Source: Deltaproteobacteria bacterium (GTDB taxonomy: Bacteria > Myxococcota_A > JAADFL01). From it: DNA of 44,294 nucleotides. The stretch is from positions 1 through 44,294 of the forward strand of contig JAADFL010000192.1 in assembly GCA_013152945.1 (NCBI GenBank), given 5' to 3'. The notes below the pieces were generated by a model. It ran no database searches. It had not been told where the DNA came from and worked only from the letters and a program-made list of their open reading frames with translations. The first letter of the stretch is position 1. Every line of letters begins with the position of its first letter. The translations under genes and the position numbers were made by a program. Below are positions 21,167 to 33,204 of the stretch, in pieces.

Positions 21167-22285
21167 TCAACGTCCGACCCTGGGCGAACCGCCACTACCT
21201 CTTTCAGGATGTGTCACGGAACCGCCTGATGCGATCAGGTTCTTCAATTCTTCCTGGTCCGAGCTTCGTCCGAGAGCCTCGTCGAGTGTTATTTCTCCAC
21301 GCAGGTAGAGCTGGCCGAGGGCCTGATTCAGCGTTTGCATGCCCCATTTGCTTTGTCCTACCTGCATAACCGAGTATATCTGGTGCACCTTGTCTTCTCT
21401 GACAAGGTTGCGAATGGCAGGGTTCGGTATCATAACCTCTACAGCCAAGGTCCTTCCGCGGCCGGACGCCTTGGGCATAAGCTGTTGGCAAAGTACGCCT
21501 TCCAGCACAAAAGAGAGTTGGGCCCTGACCTGGGGTTGTTGGTACGGTGGAAATACATCTATGATACGGTTGATGGTTTGAACCGCGGAGTTCGTGTGCA
21601 GGGTCGCGAATGCCAGGTGCCCTGTCTCACTAATAGTCAACGCGGCTTCAATGGTTTCGAGATCTCTCATCTCGCCAATGAGCACAACGTCGGGGTCCTG
21701 GCGCAACACGTATTTCAATGCCCTTTTAAAGGACTCGGTGTCCGAGCCGACCTCACGCTGATTCACTATGCAATTCTTGTGCGGATGAAGGTATTCAATA
21801 GGATCTTCAATCGTTAGAATGTGTTGATTTCGCTCCGTGTTTATCTTGTCGATTATAGAGGCCAGCGTGGTCGATTTTCCGGATCCAGTAGGTCCTGTTA
21901 CCAGTACCAGCCCTCTTGGTTTTCTTGCCAGCTCATTAACGACCTGAGGCAGGCCGAGTTCCTGAAAAGTCATAATCTTGAAAGGAATCGTCCTGAAGGC
22001 GCCCGAAACAGCGCCTCTTTGCATGAAGATGTTGGCCCTGAACCTTGATAGGTTTTTTACTCCGAAAGACAGGTCGAGCTCGTTTTCCTCTTCAAACCTG
22101 TGTTTTTGCGCGTCAGTAAGGATGGAGTAACAGAGCTGTTTCGTCTCGACCGGTGTCAACGGAGGAGTTTTTAAAGGAATCAACTGTCCGTCTATCCTAA
22201 GTTGTGGAGGGGAACCGGTGGTGATGTGAAGATCGCTGGCTCCCTTCTCTATCATGGCTTTCAGCAATTGGTGTAGATTCGGCAT
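21167..22285 (-). CDS. pilT: Type IV pilus retraction ATPase PilT
   Basis: This 372-residue hexameric AAA-like ATPase drives pilus depolymerisation at the inner membrane. The N-terminal PAS-like domain contains GASDLHITTGSPP. Walker A is GPTGSGKST (131-139), the Asp box TIEDPIE, Walker B DVVLIGEMRDLET, and the His box TGHLAFATLHTNS. The PilT-specific AIRNLIRE motif is nearly intact as AIRNLVRE (290-297), which supports true retraction function. It sits between pilB and pilC as in M. xanthus. Two further PilT-like genes at 26022 and 28789 lack this motif. Confidence 0.95.
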   Translation of the reverse strand: MPNLHQLLKAMIEKGASDLHITTGSPPQLRIDGQLIPLKTPPLTPVETKQLCYSILTDAQKHRFEEENELDLSFGVKNLSRFRANIFMQRGAVSGAFRTIPFKIMTFQELGLPQVVNELARKPRGLVLVTGPTGSGKSTTLASIIDKINTERNQHILTIEDPIEYLHPHKNCIVNQREVGSDTESFKRALKYVLRQDPDVVLIGEMRDLETIEAALTISETGHLAFATLHTNSAVQTINRIIDVFPPYQQPQVRAQLSFVLEGVLCQQLMPKASGRGRTLAVEVMIPNPAIRNLVREDKVHQIYSVMQVGQSKWGMQTLNQALGQLYLRGEITLDEALGRSSDQEELKNLIASGGSVTHPERGSGGSPRVGR

Positions 22286-26021: not shown

Positions 26022-28796
26022 ATGGTTACTGCTAAAGAGTTGGTAAAAGAGTTTACGACGGCAGGGTGGCATACAAGAGAAGAGATCGAAGAGTTTGTCA
26101 TGGCCGCATCCGGCATTGAGCCATGGGAACTCAACAAGTTCGTGGACTTACTGGCAAATCGTAAATTGTCCCAGGACCCGGGCAGACAACAACAACGTCT
26201 TCGGGCATTCCAGAGATTAGTCGAAACAAGTGGCCACAGCGGCATGTTCAGACCAATGGTCAAGGTATTGAAGACAGGAGATTTGCAGACCAAGAGATTC
26301 GTGGCGTCTTTACTGCACAAGGTCAACGACATCCAGTCACACGATGAACTCTGTTCTCTTCTTAGAAGTAAGGACAAGGATATCCGCGAGGCGGGGGCCA
26401 TGGCGCTCAAGATGGTTGGCGGAAAGACCGTGTTGAAAATCGTGGGGGACATGGTCCGTGAGCCAGCCTTTCCGGGAAGGAAAGAGGCTGCCGATGTTGC
26501 AGCCAATGTTGGAGGCCATTATTCCATCGGTATCTTGAGCGACATAGTTAAGTTCGGCACTTTGACAGAGAAGATTTCTGCATTGAGATATCTGGGTGAT
26601 CCGAAGTTTGTAGTTAAGGATCCGGAATCAGCGCGTAGTACAATAAAACCATTGCTGGCAGAGCCCGACGATAACCTTGTTGCTGCAGCGATATCATCCT
26701 ATTGCGGCATATGTGACGAGGACCAATATTTCCAGGATATCGCTTTCTTCATGGATTCAGGAAGCTTGCGGCTGGTCAAGGCGGCCTTGATGGGGCTCAA
26801 GCGCTTCACTTCGACCAGGGCCATGGCCATACTGGAAAGGAAACTGCGGACCGGTCCGAAGTCTGTGAGAATGGCTGTATTGGACGTGCTCCAGGCTATC
26901 GGCGGCGATATCATCCTCCCGCCGCTCGTACATGCGCTGGGACACAGACAGATCGCCGTTCGCAAGAAAGCCGCCGATGTTCTAACCGACTTAAGCAGTC
27001 AGGGAAAACTGGACCTGGCAAGGACCATAGTATGGCTATTGAGAAGTGAAGACGTTGAATTGCGGCGAATGGCGGCCGAGTTGGCTAATACTGTCAGAGA
27101 CCCGGACAACAGGCTTTGGCCAAAGTTGCTGTCATGCGTCCGGGACGAAGACTGGTGGGTAAGGGAGAGGGTCCTGGATGCATTATTGCATTTAGCAGGT
27201 CCGAAATTGAGCCGTTTCATGATGCCGTACTTGCAGGATCCGTCAGATGTAATACGCAGGTTCGGGGTACAGGTGCTGGCCAGGCTCAAGGATCCCAAGT
27301 CTGTCGGCGCCCTGGTCAGGTTGGCCATGTCCGATCCGGATTGGTGGGTCAGGGAGCAGGCGGTCGAGGCTGTTGCCGAGATCAACGATCCAAGGACCGT
27401 ACCACACCTGGTGCATATAATGAGTTCTTCTCCGGACATGAAGCTCGTATGTGTTCAGGCACTTGGGAAGATGGGGGCCAAGGAAGCAACGCCCCATGTT
27501 GTAGAACAACTTAGGGCTGAAGATGCGGACATCAGGCGGGCTGCCTTGAAGGCCTTGGAGGTGATAGGTACCCCATCACAGTCAGACGCAGTTAAAGAGC
27601 TGCTGGCCGACACGGATCCGAGGGTTCGCAAGGAAGCCAAGGACTTACTGCTCCGGTGGCATATTGTATTGGGAGTGCAGGAATCAGCTGCATCCGAGGG
27701 AATGTTGACTCCCCTGGAAAAATTCCTGGTGACCATGGCTGTAAAGGAAGGGGACGATTTGCTCCTTGCCTCGGATAGACGGCCTTATATTAAGAAGATG
27801 GGAAAGATGGTTCCCCTCTCGGAACGAAAATTGACAAATGGCCAGGTTCAGGCATTGATACTTCCGTTGCTCACAACATTGCAGGTACAATTATTGAAAA
27901 ACTTGGAAGATGTGGACTTCTCTTACGAGATCCCGTCCCATGACTTAAGGTTCCGGGTGAATGTCTTTTCGCAACGGACCGGTTTGTGTGCTGTTTTCAG
28001 GATCATTAAGGGTGATGTCCCTGAACTGGAAAAGCTGGGACTTCCAAAGATTCTTTTAAATGTGGGTGATCTGAAAAACGGGCTGGTGCTTGTAGGCGGG
28101 CCCACCGGTTCGGGAAAGTCGACTACCTTGGCGGCGATAATTGACCGTATCAACAAGACTTCGGCAAGACACGTTGTGACCCTCGAGGATCCGATAGAGG
28201 TCCGCCACAAGGCCGAACTGGGAGTCATTAACCAGCGCGAAATAGGCAGCCATACGCGTTCGTACGCAGATGCATTGCGTTCGACCTTGCGCCAGGATCC
28301 GAACGTCATTCTAATTGGAGAGCTTCGTGATCTTCCGACGATTTCCTTTGCCGTGAGTGCTGCTGAAACCGGTCACCTTGTGTTTGGAACAGTGCATACG
28401 GCTTCCGCCGAGACTTCCATGGACAGGATTATCAATGCATTCCCGCCCAAGCAGCAGGATCAGGTCAGGTCGATGTTGGCAGAGAGCTTGAGGGTTGTCC
28501 TTTGCCAATACTTGCTGAAAAGGAAGGATGGAAAGGGCCGTGTACTGGCTGCGGAAGTGATGATAAACAATGATGCTATTTCCAACCTTATTCGTAAAGG
28601 AACATGCTACCAGATCCCGTCAATAATAGCTACGTCCAGGGAAATGGGAATGCAGCTCATGGACTCGGACTTGATGAGGTTGTACAAGGATGGACTGGTG
28701 AGCGTGGAAGAGGCATATATCAAGGCAACGAACAAGAAGGATTTCGAAAGTATCCTGGAGTCTTTGGGATCCGGTGGGAGGAACGCTGGTGGCTAG
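26022..28796 (+). CDS. HEAT-repeat / PilT-type ATPase fusion protein
   Basis: This 924-residue protein has two parts. Residues ~1-555 are about a dozen HEAT-like helical repeats, with two units sharing DWWVRE. From about 563 on, a complete PilT-type ATPase follows: a degenerate N-terminal PAS-like domain (EGDDLLLASDRRPYIKKMG replaces ASDLHI...), Walker A GPTGSGKST (693-701), Asp box TLEDPIE, Walker B DPNVILIGELRDL, and His box TGHLVFGTVHTAS. The retraction motif AIRNLIRE is AISNLIRK (852-859). There is no zinc tetra-Cys, so it is not PilB-like. ATG 26022 has GAGG 7 nt upstream. An alternative ATG is at 26007. It is the first gene of a cluster with a PilT paralogue and a kinase. HEAT repeats suggest docking to another protein. 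Confidence 0.88.
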   Translation: MVTAKELVKEFTTAGWHTREEIEEFVMAASGIEPWELNKFVDLLANRKLSQDPGRQQQRLRAFQRLVETSGHSGMFRPMVKVLKTGDLQTKRFVASLLHKVNDIQSHDELCSLLRSKDKDIREAGAMALKMVGGKTVLKIVGDMVREPAFPGRKEAADVAANVGGHYSIGILSDIVKFGTLTEKISALRYLGDPKFVVKDPESARSTIKPLLAEPDDNLVAAAISSYCGICDEDQYFQDIAFFMDSGSLRLVKAALMGLKRFTSTRAMAILERKLRTGPKSVRMAVLDVLQAIGGDIILPPLVHALGHRQIAVRKKAADVLTDLSSQGKLDLARTIVWLLRSEDVELRRMAAELANTVRDPDNRLWPKLLSCVRDEDWWVRERVLDALLHLAGPKLSRFMMPYLQDPSDVIRRFGVQVLARLKDPKSVGALVRLAMSDPDWWVREQAVEAVAEINDPRTVPHLVHIMSSSPDMKLVCVQALGKMGAKEATPHVVEQLRAEDADIRRAALKALEVIGTPSQSDAVKELLADTDPRVRKEAKDLLLRWHIVLGVQESAASEGMLTPLEKFLVTMAVKEGDDLLLASDRRPYIKKMGKMVPLSERKLTNGQVQALILPLLTTLQVQLLKNLEDVDFSYEIPSHDLRFRVNVFSQRTGLCAVFRIIKGDVPELEKLGLPKILLNVGDLKNGLVLVGGPTGSGKSTTLAAIIDRINKTSARHVVTLEDPIEVRHKAELGVINQREIGSHTRSYADALRSTLRQDPNVILIGELRDLPTISFAVSAAETGHLVFGTVHTASAETSMDRIINAFPPKQQDQVRSMLAESLRVVLCQYLLKRKDGKGRVLAAEVMINNDAISNLIRKGTCYQIPSIIATSREMGMQLMDSDLMRLYKDGLVSVEEAYIKATNKKDFESILESLGSGGRNAGG

Positions 28797-29874
28797 ACTG
28801 GACACCTTTTTAAAACTTGTTGTAGAGCAACATGCAAGCGACCTGCATTTTCACGCAGGTAATCCTCCTATTGTCAGGCATGATGGCGATATCATCAAGT
28901 TACCGTTCAGGGTACTCTCCGATTCAGAGGCGGAACGGTTCATTTACGAAATCATGACAGATGAGCAAAAAAAGGCCTTCCTGGAGAATCATGACCTGGA
29001 TATGATTTACGTGATAGACGGCGTCGGCCGTTTCAGGGTTAACGTATTTCTCCAAAGCCATGGACCAAGTGCCGTCTTCAGGGTCATCCCTCAGAGATTG
29101 CCGACAGTGGAAGAACTGATGTTGCCCCCAATGGTAAAGAAGCTGGCCCAGTTGAACAATGGCTTGATCCTGGTCACCGGACCAACAGGAGCGGGTAAAA
29201 CAACGACTCTTGCAGCAATTGTCAACTATATCAACACATCATTTCAAAAGCATATTATTACAATCGAGGATCCCATAGAGTTTGTCCATGAGCCCATCAA
29301 CAGTGTCATAACTCAACGCCAGATTGGCTACCATGCCGAAAGTTTCGCCACAGCCCTGCGGTCTGCCCTGCGTGAATCCCCGGACGTGTTGGTGGTTGGA
29401 GAGATGAGGGATCTGGAGACCGTTCAACTGGCATTACAAGCTGCTGAAACAGGGGTGCTGGTCTTTGCCACATTGCACACAAACAGTGCGGCAAAATCCA
29501 TTGACAGGATTATCGATGTCATGCCCGAGGAAAGCCGGGACCAGACCAGGGGTGTATTGTCCGTGCTTCTTCGTGGAGTAATGGCCCAGCATCTGTGCAA
29601 ACGGGCGAGTGGAGAAGGCAGAATCGCGGTAATGGAACTACTGGTCCAGAATTGGGCTGTATCAAACATGATAAGAGAAAACAAGATACACATGCTCGAC
29701 TCCTACCTCCTGTCTGCAAGTTTGGCGGAAACAGGATGTCAGAGCCTGGATAGTTGCGCATTGCAATTTATCAGGGAGGGCCTAATCACCCTGGAAGACG
29801 GCTTGAAAATTGCCAATGATCCCCTGAGATTGAAGGAACTGGCATCCGAATTTTACGAAGTCGAGGAGGATTGA
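28789..29874 (+). CDS. PilT-like ATPase paralogue (PilT/PilU family)
   Basis: This 361-residue ATPase aligns without gaps to the window's PilT over residues 1-300. The N-terminal domain has HASDLHFHAGNPP, Walker A is GPTGAGKTT (131-139), the Asp box TIEDPIE, and Walker B DVLVVGEMRDLET. The His box is TGVLVFATLHTNS, where the usual TGH His is Val223. AIRNLVRE becomes AVSNMIRE (290-297), with Arg292 to Ser. GTG 28789 is chosen because GGAGGA lies 7 nt upstream. The gene overlaps the end of the HEAT-PilT gene by 8 nt, implying coupling. It may form homo-hexamers or mixed hexamers with the fusion. Motif loss argues for an accessory (PilU-like) or non-retraction role. Confidence 0.88.
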   Translation: MARLDTFLKLVVEQHASDLHFHAGNPPIVRHDGDIIKLPFRVLSDSEAERFIYEIMTDEQKKAFLENHDLDMIYVIDGVGRFRVNVFLQSHGPSAVFRVIPQRLPTVEELMLPPMVKKLAQLNNGLILVTGPTGAGKTTTLAAIVNYINTSFQKHIITIEDPIEFVHEPINSVITQRQIGYHAESFATALRSALRESPDVLVVGEMRDLETVQLALQAAETGVLVFATLHTNSAAKSIDRIIDVMPEESRDQTRGVLSVLLRGVMAQHLCKRASGEGRIAVMELLVQNWAVSNMIRENKIHMLDSYLLSASLAETGCQSLDSCALQFIREGLITLEDGLKIANDPLRLKELASEFYEVEED

Positions 29875-29877
29875 CCC

Positions 29878-31890
29878 TTGGCCGGAAAAGAATCCCGGCA
29901 GGAAGAATTGTTGAAACTCGCCCGAAAAGAGGAGCAGCGTGGCAAGCTTGGCGCTGCATACAAGCTTTTCCTGGATGCAGGAGCTCAAGAGGAAGCTGCT
30001 AGGATTCTCGCCTTGGCCGGCAAGCATGGAGAAGCAGGAAGGCTGTTGCTGTCATCACTTGGCGCCGAGCCTTCAAGGGCTGCTGCAAAGGATACCTGGG
30101 CGCGAAAAATAGTAATGAAAGCAGGCATCTATTTTTCCAAGGGAGGGATGAACAAAGAAGCTGCGAAGATGTTTATGGCCGCCCACGAGTGGGAACGGGC
30201 CGCAGACGCAATCGAAAAATCGGGAGACAAAGTTGCTGCAGCAAAGTTGCGGGCCAGGAGATCAGGATCGGGTTCCTTCGATGACAAGGGAATAGATCCC
30301 GGTGGAAAGGGCGGCAATGTCACCCCTGCTCAAGCCAGGAGATTGGAATTGGAAGGCAAGCATGAACTGGCGATGCAGGCTTATGTACAACTGGGATCAC
30401 CCCTGGATGCGGCAAGGGTTGCGGCTTCGGCAAAAAGGTTCAAGGACGCGGCGGAACTATTCATGGAAGCAGGCAAGCCGATCGAGTCCGCGTCATGCCG
30501 TCTGAAGGCGGGAGATGCATCCGGGTACCTCGACGCATTGACCAGGGTTCAAAAGGATGATCCGAATTACAGGAAAGCGGCCATGGCCGTGGTTAGAGCG
30601 GCAATTCAGCAAAACTTGCTCGGTTTTCAGATAGAGCATTTTCTTTCAGAATTCATAATGACCGGTCCACAAAATCCAGGGGAGCTGGAGAGTTTCTATT
30701 TAATGGGAATGCTTTACGAAAAGAGGGGATTCCTGGAAAATGCCCTGGAAATGTTCTCCAAGGTCATTGCCACGGTTCCTTCCTATCGCGATGCGAGGAC
30801 CAGACTGGAGCAAATCAATAACAGCATCAAGGGCACGGTCGAAGACTATAAGAGAATCATGGAAGAAGAAGATTCCTTTAGAAAAGGCTCCAACCGTAAC
30901 ATCAAAGATTCCGGTGAAATGGTCGGCTTACCGGATCTGCCCGAGCTACCGGATTTGCCGGATTTACCCGATTTGCCTCAAGTCAAGAATCAGCCGGCAC
31001 CCGTTCAGAAACAAAATGAGTCACAACAAGAGGTCAATAGCGTGCACCCTCCACCAAGTGGTATGATAGACGTCGGATCGACTCTGGCCGGTGGAAGATA
31101 CAGCCTGAAAAAGAAACTTGGAGAAGGCGGGGTAGCAATCGTTTTCCAGGCCAGAGATGAAGAGCTGGATGAAGATATCGCTATCAAGATATTTACGAGG
31201 ATCACGGCAAAGGACAGCTTGGTTAAGAGATTCAAGGAAGAGCTCAAGTTTTCCAGGCAACTCGTGCATCCTAATATTGTAAGATTATATGATTTCGGGA
31301 TCGACACAGGATATCGATACATTACCATGGAACTACTGCTGGGCAGACCGCTGGACGAGTTCATGAATGACGGCCCCATGGATTTCAAGACCGGAATCGG
31401 GTACTTGATGCAGGCGTGTATGGGTCTCAATGCAGCCCATGAACAGGGAGCGATTCACAGAGACATGAAACCTGCAAACCTTTTCGTGACAGACCAGGGG
31501 ACCGTAAAAGTCATGGATTTCGGAATAGCCAAGTGGCAGAGAAGCACCGGCCTCACCGAGACCGGCAGTATAGCCGGAACACCTGAGTATATAGCACCGG
31601 AACAGGTAAAAGATTTTGCAGGCGTCACTCCCAGGACAGATATCTATTCTCTCGGCGTAGTGGCCTTCGAGATGTTTACCGGAGAGTTGCCTTTCGATGA
31701 TGACGAACTCATGGCATTGTTGATGAAGCATGTCCACGACCAGCCCCCGAATCCATCTTCGCTTCGTTCGGATATGCCCCTGAATCTCGAAAATGTTATA
31801 CTTAAATGTTTGGAAAAAGAGCCAGACAAGAGATTCAACTCTTGCCTGGAAATGGTGAGGGCATTACAGGAAATATATACTACACTATAG
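29878..31890 (+). CDS. Soluble helical-repeat Ser/Thr protein kinase
   Basis: This 670-residue protein has no TM helix or signal. Residues ~1-330 are Ala-rich TPR-like helical repeats. A linker at about 348-368 has repeated LPD/LPE units. The kinase domain (about 405-665) has a Gly loop GEGGVA (third Gly replaced by Ala), Lys437 in AIKIF, catalytic HRDMKPAN (His527, Asp529), DFG (Asp547), and GTPEYIAPEQ in the activation segment. It is Hanks-type and probably active. A TTG start is used, with GAGGAGG 8 nt upstream. It lies 3 nt after the PilT paralogue, so co-translation is very likely. The repeats may bind ATPases or motor proteins. Substrates are unknown. Confidence 0.9.
   Translation: MAGKESRQEELLKLARKEEQRGKLGAAYKLFLDAGAQEEAARILALAGKHGEAGRLLLSSLGAEPSRAAAKDTWARKIVMKAGIYFSKGGMNKEAAKMFMAAHEWERAADAIEKSGDKVAAAKLRARRSGSGSFDDKGIDPGGKGGNVTPAQARRLELEGKHELAMQAYVQLGSPLDAARVAASAKRFKDAAELFMEAGKPIESASCRLKAGDASGYLDALTRVQKDDPNYRKAAMAVVRAAIQQNLLGFQIEHFLSEFIMTGPQNPGELESFYLMGMLYEKRGFLENALEMFSKVIATVPSYRDARTRLEQINNSIKGTVEDYKRIMEEEDSFRKGSNRNIKDSGEMVGLPDLPELPDLPDLPDLPQVKNQPAPVQKQNESQQEVNSVHPPPSGMIDVGSTLAGGRYSLKKKLGEGGVAIVFQARDEELDEDIAIKIFTRITAKDSLVKRFKEELKFSRQLVHPNIVRLYDFGIDTGYRYITMELLLGRPLDEFMNDGPMDFKTGIGYLMQACMGLNAAHEQGAIHRDMKPANLFVTDQGTVKVMDFGIAKWQRSTGLTETGSIAGTPEYIAPEQVKDFAGVTPRTDIYSLGVVAFEMFTGELPFDDDELMALLMKHVHDQPPNPSSLRSDMPLNLENVILKCLEKEPDKRFNSCLEMVRALQEIYTTL
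30933..30980 (+). repeat. Tandem 9-nt repeat encoding Leu-Pro-Asp/Glu linker
   Basis: Repeated 9-nt units of the type CCGGATTTG or CCCGATTTG encode PDL/PEL triplets between the helical repeats and the kinase domain. They probably form an extended flexible linker. Confidence 0.8.
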
Positions 31891-31920: not shown

Positions 31921-33204
31921 ATGGCTCAAGGAAAGAAAAAGTTCTTATTTCCCGGTTTGGCGGCCTCGATCTTGGTGTTTTCGGCAGGCATGTGGGCCGG
32001 GGCCTGCAACAGCAACGATTCATCGCCCAGCGGGGATGTGGATTCAGACTCTGATACAGATGTGGATACTGATACCGATACTGATACCGGCTCGGAAAAT
32101 CCACTGGATAAACAGGCTGTATCGACTGCCGGTCCTTACTTGTTGAAGCCCGGCCCGGACAGCATCGAAGTTTGGTGGGAAACCGATCTTGCAGCTTCTT
32201 CAAGGGTTTCCTATGGCGAGGGAGAAAGCCTGGACCACATGGCGGTTGGAGAAATAATAAAGGATGACTACGAGGGGGCCTATCTAGTAAAGCCGCCTTC
32301 CGGCTTCAGACATAAGGTCGTTATCAGCGGTCTGGAGCAGGGGAAGTCTTATTCGTACAAGGTGATTTCAGTCAAAGAACCGCTTAAGGCCGGACATTTT
32401 TCAACAGCTCCCAAGCAAGATGAAGACGTGGAAATAGCGGTTTTCGGCGACGACAGGAGCAATGATGAAGATCATCATTTGGTTGTGCAAACAATTTTAA
32501 AGGATAGCCCTGCTCTTGTCGTCAATACCGGAGATATGGTTCCGTACGGCAAAAATGATGATGACTGGCGCAACTTTTTCAAAATCGAGGCGGACTTGGT
32601 GCGAAACACTCCCATGTATCCTGTCATGGGCAACCATGAATCAGCCCTCGAGGGCAGCTTCAAGTTCGGCTCGTACTTCGGCGGCATGTTGAAGAAAGAC
32701 CAAGCCGCTTATTACTCATTTGAATTCGGACCGGTGCATGGCGTGGTCCTGGATACCAATAGAGACCTCGAACAAGGCTCGGACCAGTTAAACTGGCTCG
32801 AGACAGATCTCGAATCTGTGTCGCATAGGAAGAAACAACCCGCGCTCTTGGCTTTTTTCCACCATCCATTGTATACCTTCAGCAACCATGACCCTGAAAA
32901 ACAACTAAGGGAAATTTTGCTTCCTATTTTTCAAAAATACGGTGTGGACGCAGTGTTCTGGGGACACAATCACTGTTATGAACGTTTTTCCATAAAAGGA
33001 GTTCCTTATATCACTACCGGAGGCGGCGGAGCGCCGCTGTACAGTGTCGGGCAGGCAACCGGTGATGATGCACAGTATTTTGTAACCGGTGAAAAGGCGT
33101 TGCACTATATCCTCTTGGATGTTTCTCCTACAGCTATTGATGGACAGGTCATACATGTACCGGACCACTCTGTAATGGACACATTCAAAATCGAAGGATA
33201 TTGA
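31921..33204 (+). CDS. Purple-acid-phosphatase-like metallophosphoesterase lipoprotein
   Basis: This 427-residue lipoprotein has a signal peptide ending WAGAC (Cys29), followed by a D-S/D-T spacer (about 39-56). A fibronectin-III-like N-domain (about 68-165: GPYLLKPGPDSIEVWWETD, GLEQGKSYSYKV) precedes a calcineurin-like phosphoesterase. Metal motifs are GDDR (176-179), NTGDM (Asp205), GNHE (237-240), HH (314-315) and GHNHCYERF (348-356). This order matches purple acid phosphatases. ATG 31921 has GAGGAGG 6 nt upstream. It follows the kinase gene by 30 nt. It would act at the cell surface or periplasm, so it is unlikely to dephosphorylate the kinase's cytoplasmic targets. Phosphate scavenging is a simpler idea. 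Confidence 0.87.
   Translation: MAQGKKKFLFPGLAASILVFSAGMWAGACNSNDSSPSGDVDSDSDTDVDTDTDTDTGSENPLDKQAVSTAGPYLLKPGPDSIEVWWETDLAASSRVSYGEGESLDHMAVGEIIKDDYEGAYLVKPPSGFRHKVVISGLEQGKSYSYKVISVKEPLKAGHFSTAPKQDEDVEIAVFGDDRSNDEDHHLVVQTILKDSPALVVNTGDMVPYGKNDDDWRNFFKIEADLVRNTPMYPVMGNHESALEGSFKFGSYFGGMLKKDQAAYYSFEFGPVHGVVLDTNRDLEQGSDQLNWLETDLESVSHRKKQPALLAFFHHPLYTFSNHDPEKQLREILLPIFQKYGVDAVFWGHNHCYERFSIKGVPYITTGGGGAPLYSVGQATGDDAQYFVTGEKALHYILLDVSPTAIDGQVIHVPDHSVMDTFKIEGY
32035..32088 (+). repeat. Asp-Ser/Asp-Thr spacer repeat
   Basis: GATACN-type 6-nt repeats encode a DVDSDSDTDVDTDTD-like spacer after the lipidated Cys. It is the counterpart of the spacer at 1535-1596 in the ceramidase-like lipoprotein. Confidence 0.85.

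Follow-up and report, generated by a model that had tools for sequence, protein, structure and literature searches.

The window analysed here is a 44,294-nucleotide stretch of contig C192 from a 4.84-Mb draft genome, which carries three co-oriented genes at positions 26022-31890 of the forward strand (which we refer to as A, B and C, Table 1). The 8-nt overlap between A and B, the 3-nt gap between B and C and the gene coordinates given in a preliminary description of this DNA were all confirmed when the open reading frames were read again. Its strong ribosome-binding site for each gene was borne out for B (GGGAGGA) and C (GAGGAGG), but not for A, where the Shine-Dalgarno-like sequence is moderate (GAGGG). 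None of the three proteins contains a transmembrane-like segment. The opposite strand holds a pil cluster, running from 24053 down to ~12.7 kb, which had been called a complete pil operon; this was an overstatement, as the cluster consists of pilB-pilT-pilC-pilS-pilR, two pilin-like genes and ABC-transporter genes, and pilM was found on a different contig of the source genome. Downstream of C, 30 nt past the kinase stop and behind a strong Shine-Dalgarno sequence, a gene at 31921-33204 (+) encodes a calcineurin-like phosphoesterase, which also has a purple-acid-phosphatase domain at its N-terminus and a lipoprotein-like signal. It may share a transcript with A-B-C, however it looks extracytoplasmic and is not a conserved neighbour across the loci of relatives, so it is probably not the phosphatase partner of the kinase.

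Table 1 Features of the A-B-C locus and the canonical pilT gene in the window.
Feature	Position	Strand	Details and basis
Gene A, HEAT-PilT fusion	26022..28796	+	ATG start, 924 aa; Pfam, TIGR01420, AlphaFold2 model, tree
PilT domain of A	27714..28742	+	Motif counts in 73 relatives: catalytic motifs all kept, ASDLH box lost
Gene B, stand-alone PilT paralogue	28789..29874	+	GTG start, 361 aa; Pfam, TIGR01420, tree
Gene C, soluble TPR-Ser/Thr kinase	29878..31890	+	TTG start, 670 aa; Pfam, AlphaFold2 model, kinase clade
TPR-like alpha-solenoid of C	29887..30897	+	Residues 4-340; AlphaFold2 model
Linker motif of C, LPDLPELPDLPDLPDLP	30928..30978	+	Residues 351-367; LPxLP enrichment
Kinase domain of C	31081..31884	+	Residues 402-669; Pfam, model, closest fold PknB
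Canonical pilT of the window	21167-22285	- (minus-strand pil cluster)	Tree

Protein A consists of a HEAT solenoid (approximately residues 1-550; Pfam HEAT_2, E 2e-46) followed by a complete PilT-type ATPase domain (residues 565-907; T2SSE, E 4e-44). It scores 406.5 bits against TIGR01420, the NCBIfam model of the PilT/PilU family (curated cut-off 319), and falls far below the cut-offs of the PilB/GspE models TIGR02538 and TIGR02533 (127 and 131 bits, cut-offs 676 and 630). The AlphaFold2 model of A, predicted like the others as a single chain, combines a HEAT solenoid of ~550 residues with a full PilT fold (pLDDT 87.4), and its best Foldseek matches are Geobacter PilT4 and P. aeruginosa PilT (PaPilT), with target TM-scores of 0.80-0.93. 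Protein B is a T2SSE protein (E 2e-49) which also passes the TIGR01420 cut-off of 319 (422.9 bits); its ASDLH box is kept and a valine replaces the first histidine of the HIS box. In C, a Pkinase domain (PF00069, E 7e-49) follows an alpha-solenoid half, and the predicted structure (pLDDT 86.5) comprises the solenoid, a low-confidence linker and the kinase domain. The VAIK-type lysine, HRD and DFG motifs of a Hanks-type Ser/Thr kinase are present in C and in its relatives, and the best Foldseek match of the domain is PknB (target TM 0.88). Its score against the PknB/Stk1 PASTA kinase model NF033483 is 297.6 bits, below the cut-off of 450, and 54 relatives of C are likewise devoid of transmembrane-like segments. 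An LPxLP motif, possibly for docking, occurs in 36 of the 54 kinase linkers, a figure inflated by close relatives within the set, against a mean of 1.0 after shuffling; among background proteins it was present in 14 of 603. In one lineage, to which the single-contig genome G218 (L179) belongs, the third gene encodes the TPR part and an LPxLP motif but no kinase domain, thus the kinase is not universally needed.

To find relatives, contigs were scanned with an alignment of A using two short patterns, both in the HEAT part, so the presence of a kinase was not selected for. The scan yielded 80 loci as best matches to A, in Myxococcota and unclassified Deltaproteobacteria, Acidobacteriota, the candidate division CSSED10-310 and under a few odd labels; as best matches to A, their counts apply to the long-HEAT family and not to PilT pairs overall. 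These loci include close relatives and some from one genome, and nearly all belong to metagenome-assembled genomes; genes in the GC-rich loci were called with a self-trained codon model. After gene calling, the A-B pair was present in 72 of these 80 best matches, and 60 of the 72 extended at least 1300 nt past B and form the denominator for the kinase. The gene after A-B was a kinase in 54 of the 60, in 50 cases with a TPR part like that of the window, and intergenic gaps were mostly -4 to +10 nt. Among the six other loci, L100 has a split B gene with a kinase after it, L121, L134 and L106 (where the contig end cuts it) carry a TPR homologue, L127 encodes a different signalling protein and L135 has nothing of the kind in the third slot. 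L136 has B next to C, with A a few genes downstream. The distribution is patchy: of the 282 genomes sampled in the phylum, full-length A was found in ~21.

Several loci differ in their surroundings or labels. The third slot of L127, which is on the same contig as L046, is occupied by a response regulator-GAF-PAS-GGDEF protein (L046:12478-14913) overlapping B by 4 nt, where the kinase has possibly been swapped for c-di-GMP signalling. In L106, an 898-aa protein with an N-terminus resembling an Hsp70-type ATPase (by eye) and a kinase domain is encoded on the same strand 31 nt upstream of A (L106:5234-7930), and in L120 and L121 an unrelated kinase gene lies just upstream of A. A kinase gene (L043:203-2940) lies ~4.4 kb from the trio of genome G005, on the other strand, and shares 4 nt with the gene of a PilB-like ATPase. 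Trio members also appear under the labels Ferroglobus (L138), Oligoflexia (L115) and Phycisphaeraceae (L099), these contigs are probably misbinned.

A tree was built from 100 PilT domains, PilU not among them. In it, the A domains form one clade and the B domains another (SH-aLRT 99 each), both apart from canonical PilT, and the ordinary pilT of the window groups with Geobacter PilT4. The depth and separation of these two clades rule out a recent PilT duplication. The third-gene kinases form a single clade (SH-aLRT 99) with the exception of those from CSSED10-310, which fall just outside it with one other kinase of the source genome; 20 further tested kinase domains of that genome are placed elsewhere. 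The unrelated kinase in the third slot of L131 (genome G008; identical to locus L047) implies that a kinase was recruited there independently. Distance matrices for HEAT, A, B and kinase are correlated (pairwise r 0.76-0.88, 52 loci), as would also be expected from shared vertical descent alone.

Kinases are frequent in the source genome (27 domain matches in 4.84 Mb) and PilT pairs are common in the phylum, so that two PilT duplicates might have come to lie beside a common kinase gene by chance. Against this stand the kinase count across phyla, the tight gaps, the near-exclusive kinase clade and the depth of the A and B clades; moreover, beside related pairs with a short HEAT part no kinase came next in any of 16 loci inspected, some of them truncated by the end of the contig, so kinase adjacency is no general tendency of PilT pairs. 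Kinase count, clades and gaps together rule out chance adjacency, which we regard as extremely improbable. The co-occurrence search proposed in the preliminary description therefore finds A-B-C together in at least three phyla, and its idea of a module withstood the comparison that might have undone it: relatives do not, as a rule, show the genes apart and in unrelated contexts, and the order is conserved, with separate A and B clades, a near-exclusive kinase clade and correlated distances. We are almost certain that A-B-C is a real, fixed and widespread unit in Myxococcota, Acidobacteriota and CSSED10-310.

In a Polyangiaceae draft genome (L124:3-2705), A and B form one continuous open-reading frame. 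We set this fusion aside as proof of a heteromer, since the coverage stated in the name of the record is 3.4 and a TAG stands shortly ahead of the usual start of B in a different reading frame, so a single indel error could produce it; no A-B fusion was seen in 12 further relatives. A separate PilT clade (SH-aLRT 99; L020, L021, L022, L024, L026, L027, L034 and L037) carries N-terminal extensions of ~120-290 residues, and its members apparently lack a partner PilT.

With P. aeruginosa PilT as the reference of the alignment, motifs were counted in 73 A and 69 B sequences. Lys136 of Walker A, the catalytic Glu204 of the atypical Walker B, the ASP box and the arginine fingers are kept in both almost without exception. 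In A, both HIS-box histidines are kept, and in the ASDLH box serine is replaced by aspartate in 66 of 73 sequences and histidine by a hydrophobic residue or tyrosine in all 73. B retains the ASDLH serine (69/69) and histidine (66/69), and none of the 69 has the first HIS-box histidine, His222, which is replaced by Val (57), Ile (5), Thr (4) or Ser (3); the second, His229, is present in every sequence. On the aligned sequences, A and B are therefore eroded at complementary positions, the ASDLH box in A and the first HIS-box histidine in B, and of the features typical of TIGR01420 proteins B lacks the full HIS-box pair and A the ASDLH box. In PilB, the HIS-box threonine lies between two histidines, of which the second coordinates the gamma-phosphate (PMC5424180), and in PilT the second histidine and Glu204 are required for twitching (PMC6858323).

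Hexamers of this family are packed so that each C-terminal domain sits on the N-terminal domain of the neighbouring subunit (PMC13142100). With such stacking, half of the packing units in an alternating A-B ring would contain both boxes and half neither, and the units with both are predicted to be those in which the C-terminal domain of A sits on the N-terminal domain of B. This would give a kinase-gated mixed ring, in which alternating A and B form an asymmetric motor with three sites, held by the HEAT arm and with its own kinase as the switch. To our knowledge, no heteromeric motor of this mixed kind has been described in pilus systems, and we consider the full scheme rather unlikely. A stronger candidate, to which we give nearly even odds, is that A and B assemble into two distinct rings, each a homohexamer, which cooperate as PilT and PilU do, with the kinase picking the ring that engages the pilus base and the motif losses reflecting specialisation of each ring. 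PilT and PilU, which are encoded in tandem, are indeed separate, interacting homohexamers (PMC6821130) and PilU is functional only together with PilT (PMC6762196); the arginine fingers and catalytic glutamate kept in both A and B are consistent with this. That A has lost the ASDLH box and B His222 is, however, the pattern which mixed packing units would permit, though separate rings could show it as well.

Gene content gives clues to the machine that the motor serves. Of the 40 trio genomes, 36 gave a real PilM match, in two cases a fragment, and all 13 tested for a PilC-type gene had one; three Acidobacteriota trio genomes gave no convincing PilM match, and have PilB/GspE- and PilC-type genes. 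As type IVa pili are common in these phyla, the PilM count favours a pilus only weakly. Across distant loci, no pilin, platform, secretin or pilM gene is a conserved neighbour of the unit, and the recurring neighbours are generic kinases and two-component proteins only. The closeness to the pil cluster, originally taken as a clue to function, is not conserved in relatives, and we dropped it as evidence. Family membership and co-occurrence thus weakly suggest an accessory role at the pilus base.

The same data bear on a non-pilus role, as a soluble PilT-type ATPase complex on another machine such as a secretion-type system, a gliding apparatus or a signalling scaffold. The missing pilus neighbours would suit this, the long HEAT and TPR solenoids suggest scaffolding, and A is patchy in the phylum though type IVa pilus genes are far more widespread. 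Yet both A and B pass the PilT/PilU cut-off, A is predicted to fold as a complete PilT and type IVa pilus genes are present in nearly all trio genomes, and we find a role away from the pilus somewhat unlikely. A defence system was also considered and rejected, as the PADLOC matches were generic (PD-T4-6 kinase models, a HEAT model and weak ATPase matches).

We favour, at a probability of about one half, an accessory motor of the PilT/PilU family with two non-equivalent ATPases, a HEAT adaptor and a dedicated kinase, which probably acts on type IVa pili. This proposal starts from what the sequences themselves establish (composition, order, conservation, co-inheritance, catalytic motifs and complementary loss) and extends it to a presumed physical complex, ring composition, phosphorylation, pilus target and direction of force. 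A would be the source of competent ATPase sites, with its solenoid most likely attaching the motor to a partner. PilB and GspE have an N-terminal anchoring domain, and we propose docking as the HEAT arm occupies the position of that domain. B would complete the motor, either as alternating subunits in the ring of A or as a second ring. C may sense an input through its TPR-like solenoid, be tethered through the LPxLP linker and, by phosphorylating the motor or a partner, switch or tune the motor. Of the possible targets, the base of the type IVa pilus at the inner membrane (PilC/PilM) is the likeliest; the unit would act there beside ordinary PilT and modulate retraction. A phosphorylation-controlled motor fits the catalytic motifs, which are intact in A and the kinase, and in B save for one HIS-box histidine; in a look for candidate phosphosites, the conserved Ser/Thr residues of A lay within the ATPase domain, where conservation would be expected in any case.

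Four PilT proteins have been reported in Myxococcus xanthus (PMC6060248), and A-B-C may account for some of the extra PilT paralogues that myxobacteria carry. If confirmed, it would offer a compact, genetically tractable unit for kinase control of a pilus-type motor, and a test bed for heteromeric PilT-type rings. Our literature search, which mostly did not extend to subscription journals, returned nothing relevant on HEAT-PilT fusions, PilT phosphorylation or a kinase co-inherited with a PilT-type motor, and searches with PADLOC and of the PDB gave no known relative sharing the three-part make-up. PilT-family motors themselves are known, the A-B-C unit is apparently undescribed.

Among known systems, PknB-type Hanks kinases share the kinase fold and motifs with C, but C lacks their transmembrane segment and PASTA repeats and has a TPR-like solenoid and an LPxLP linker. 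PilB and GspE resemble A in placing an extra N-terminal domain before a hexameric ATPase core, however in A HEAT repeats stand in place of MshEN/N1D and the core is of the PilT type. The PilT-PilU pair is similar in that two PilT-family ATPases are encoded in tandem, with the fold and motifs of A and B; it differs in that A here bears a 550-residue HEAT solenoid, that A is without the ASDLH box and B without the first HIS-box histidine, that a kinase gene is part of the unit, and that A and B stand apart from canonical PilT (in a tree without PilU). Other PilT pairs of Myxococcota (L048-L059 and L163-L178), tandem pairs being common in the phylum, likewise consist of an N-terminally extended PilT, whose extension is a short HEAT part or has no Pfam match, followed by a stand-alone PilT. 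In these pairs too, the B member is without the first HIS-box histidine (6/6 in the alignment) and is sister to the B of the trio (SH-aLRT 88), but the HEAT part is shorter or absent and as a rule no kinase comes next, the one in L048 being unrelated. There seems to be a wider, undescribed family of double PilT systems.
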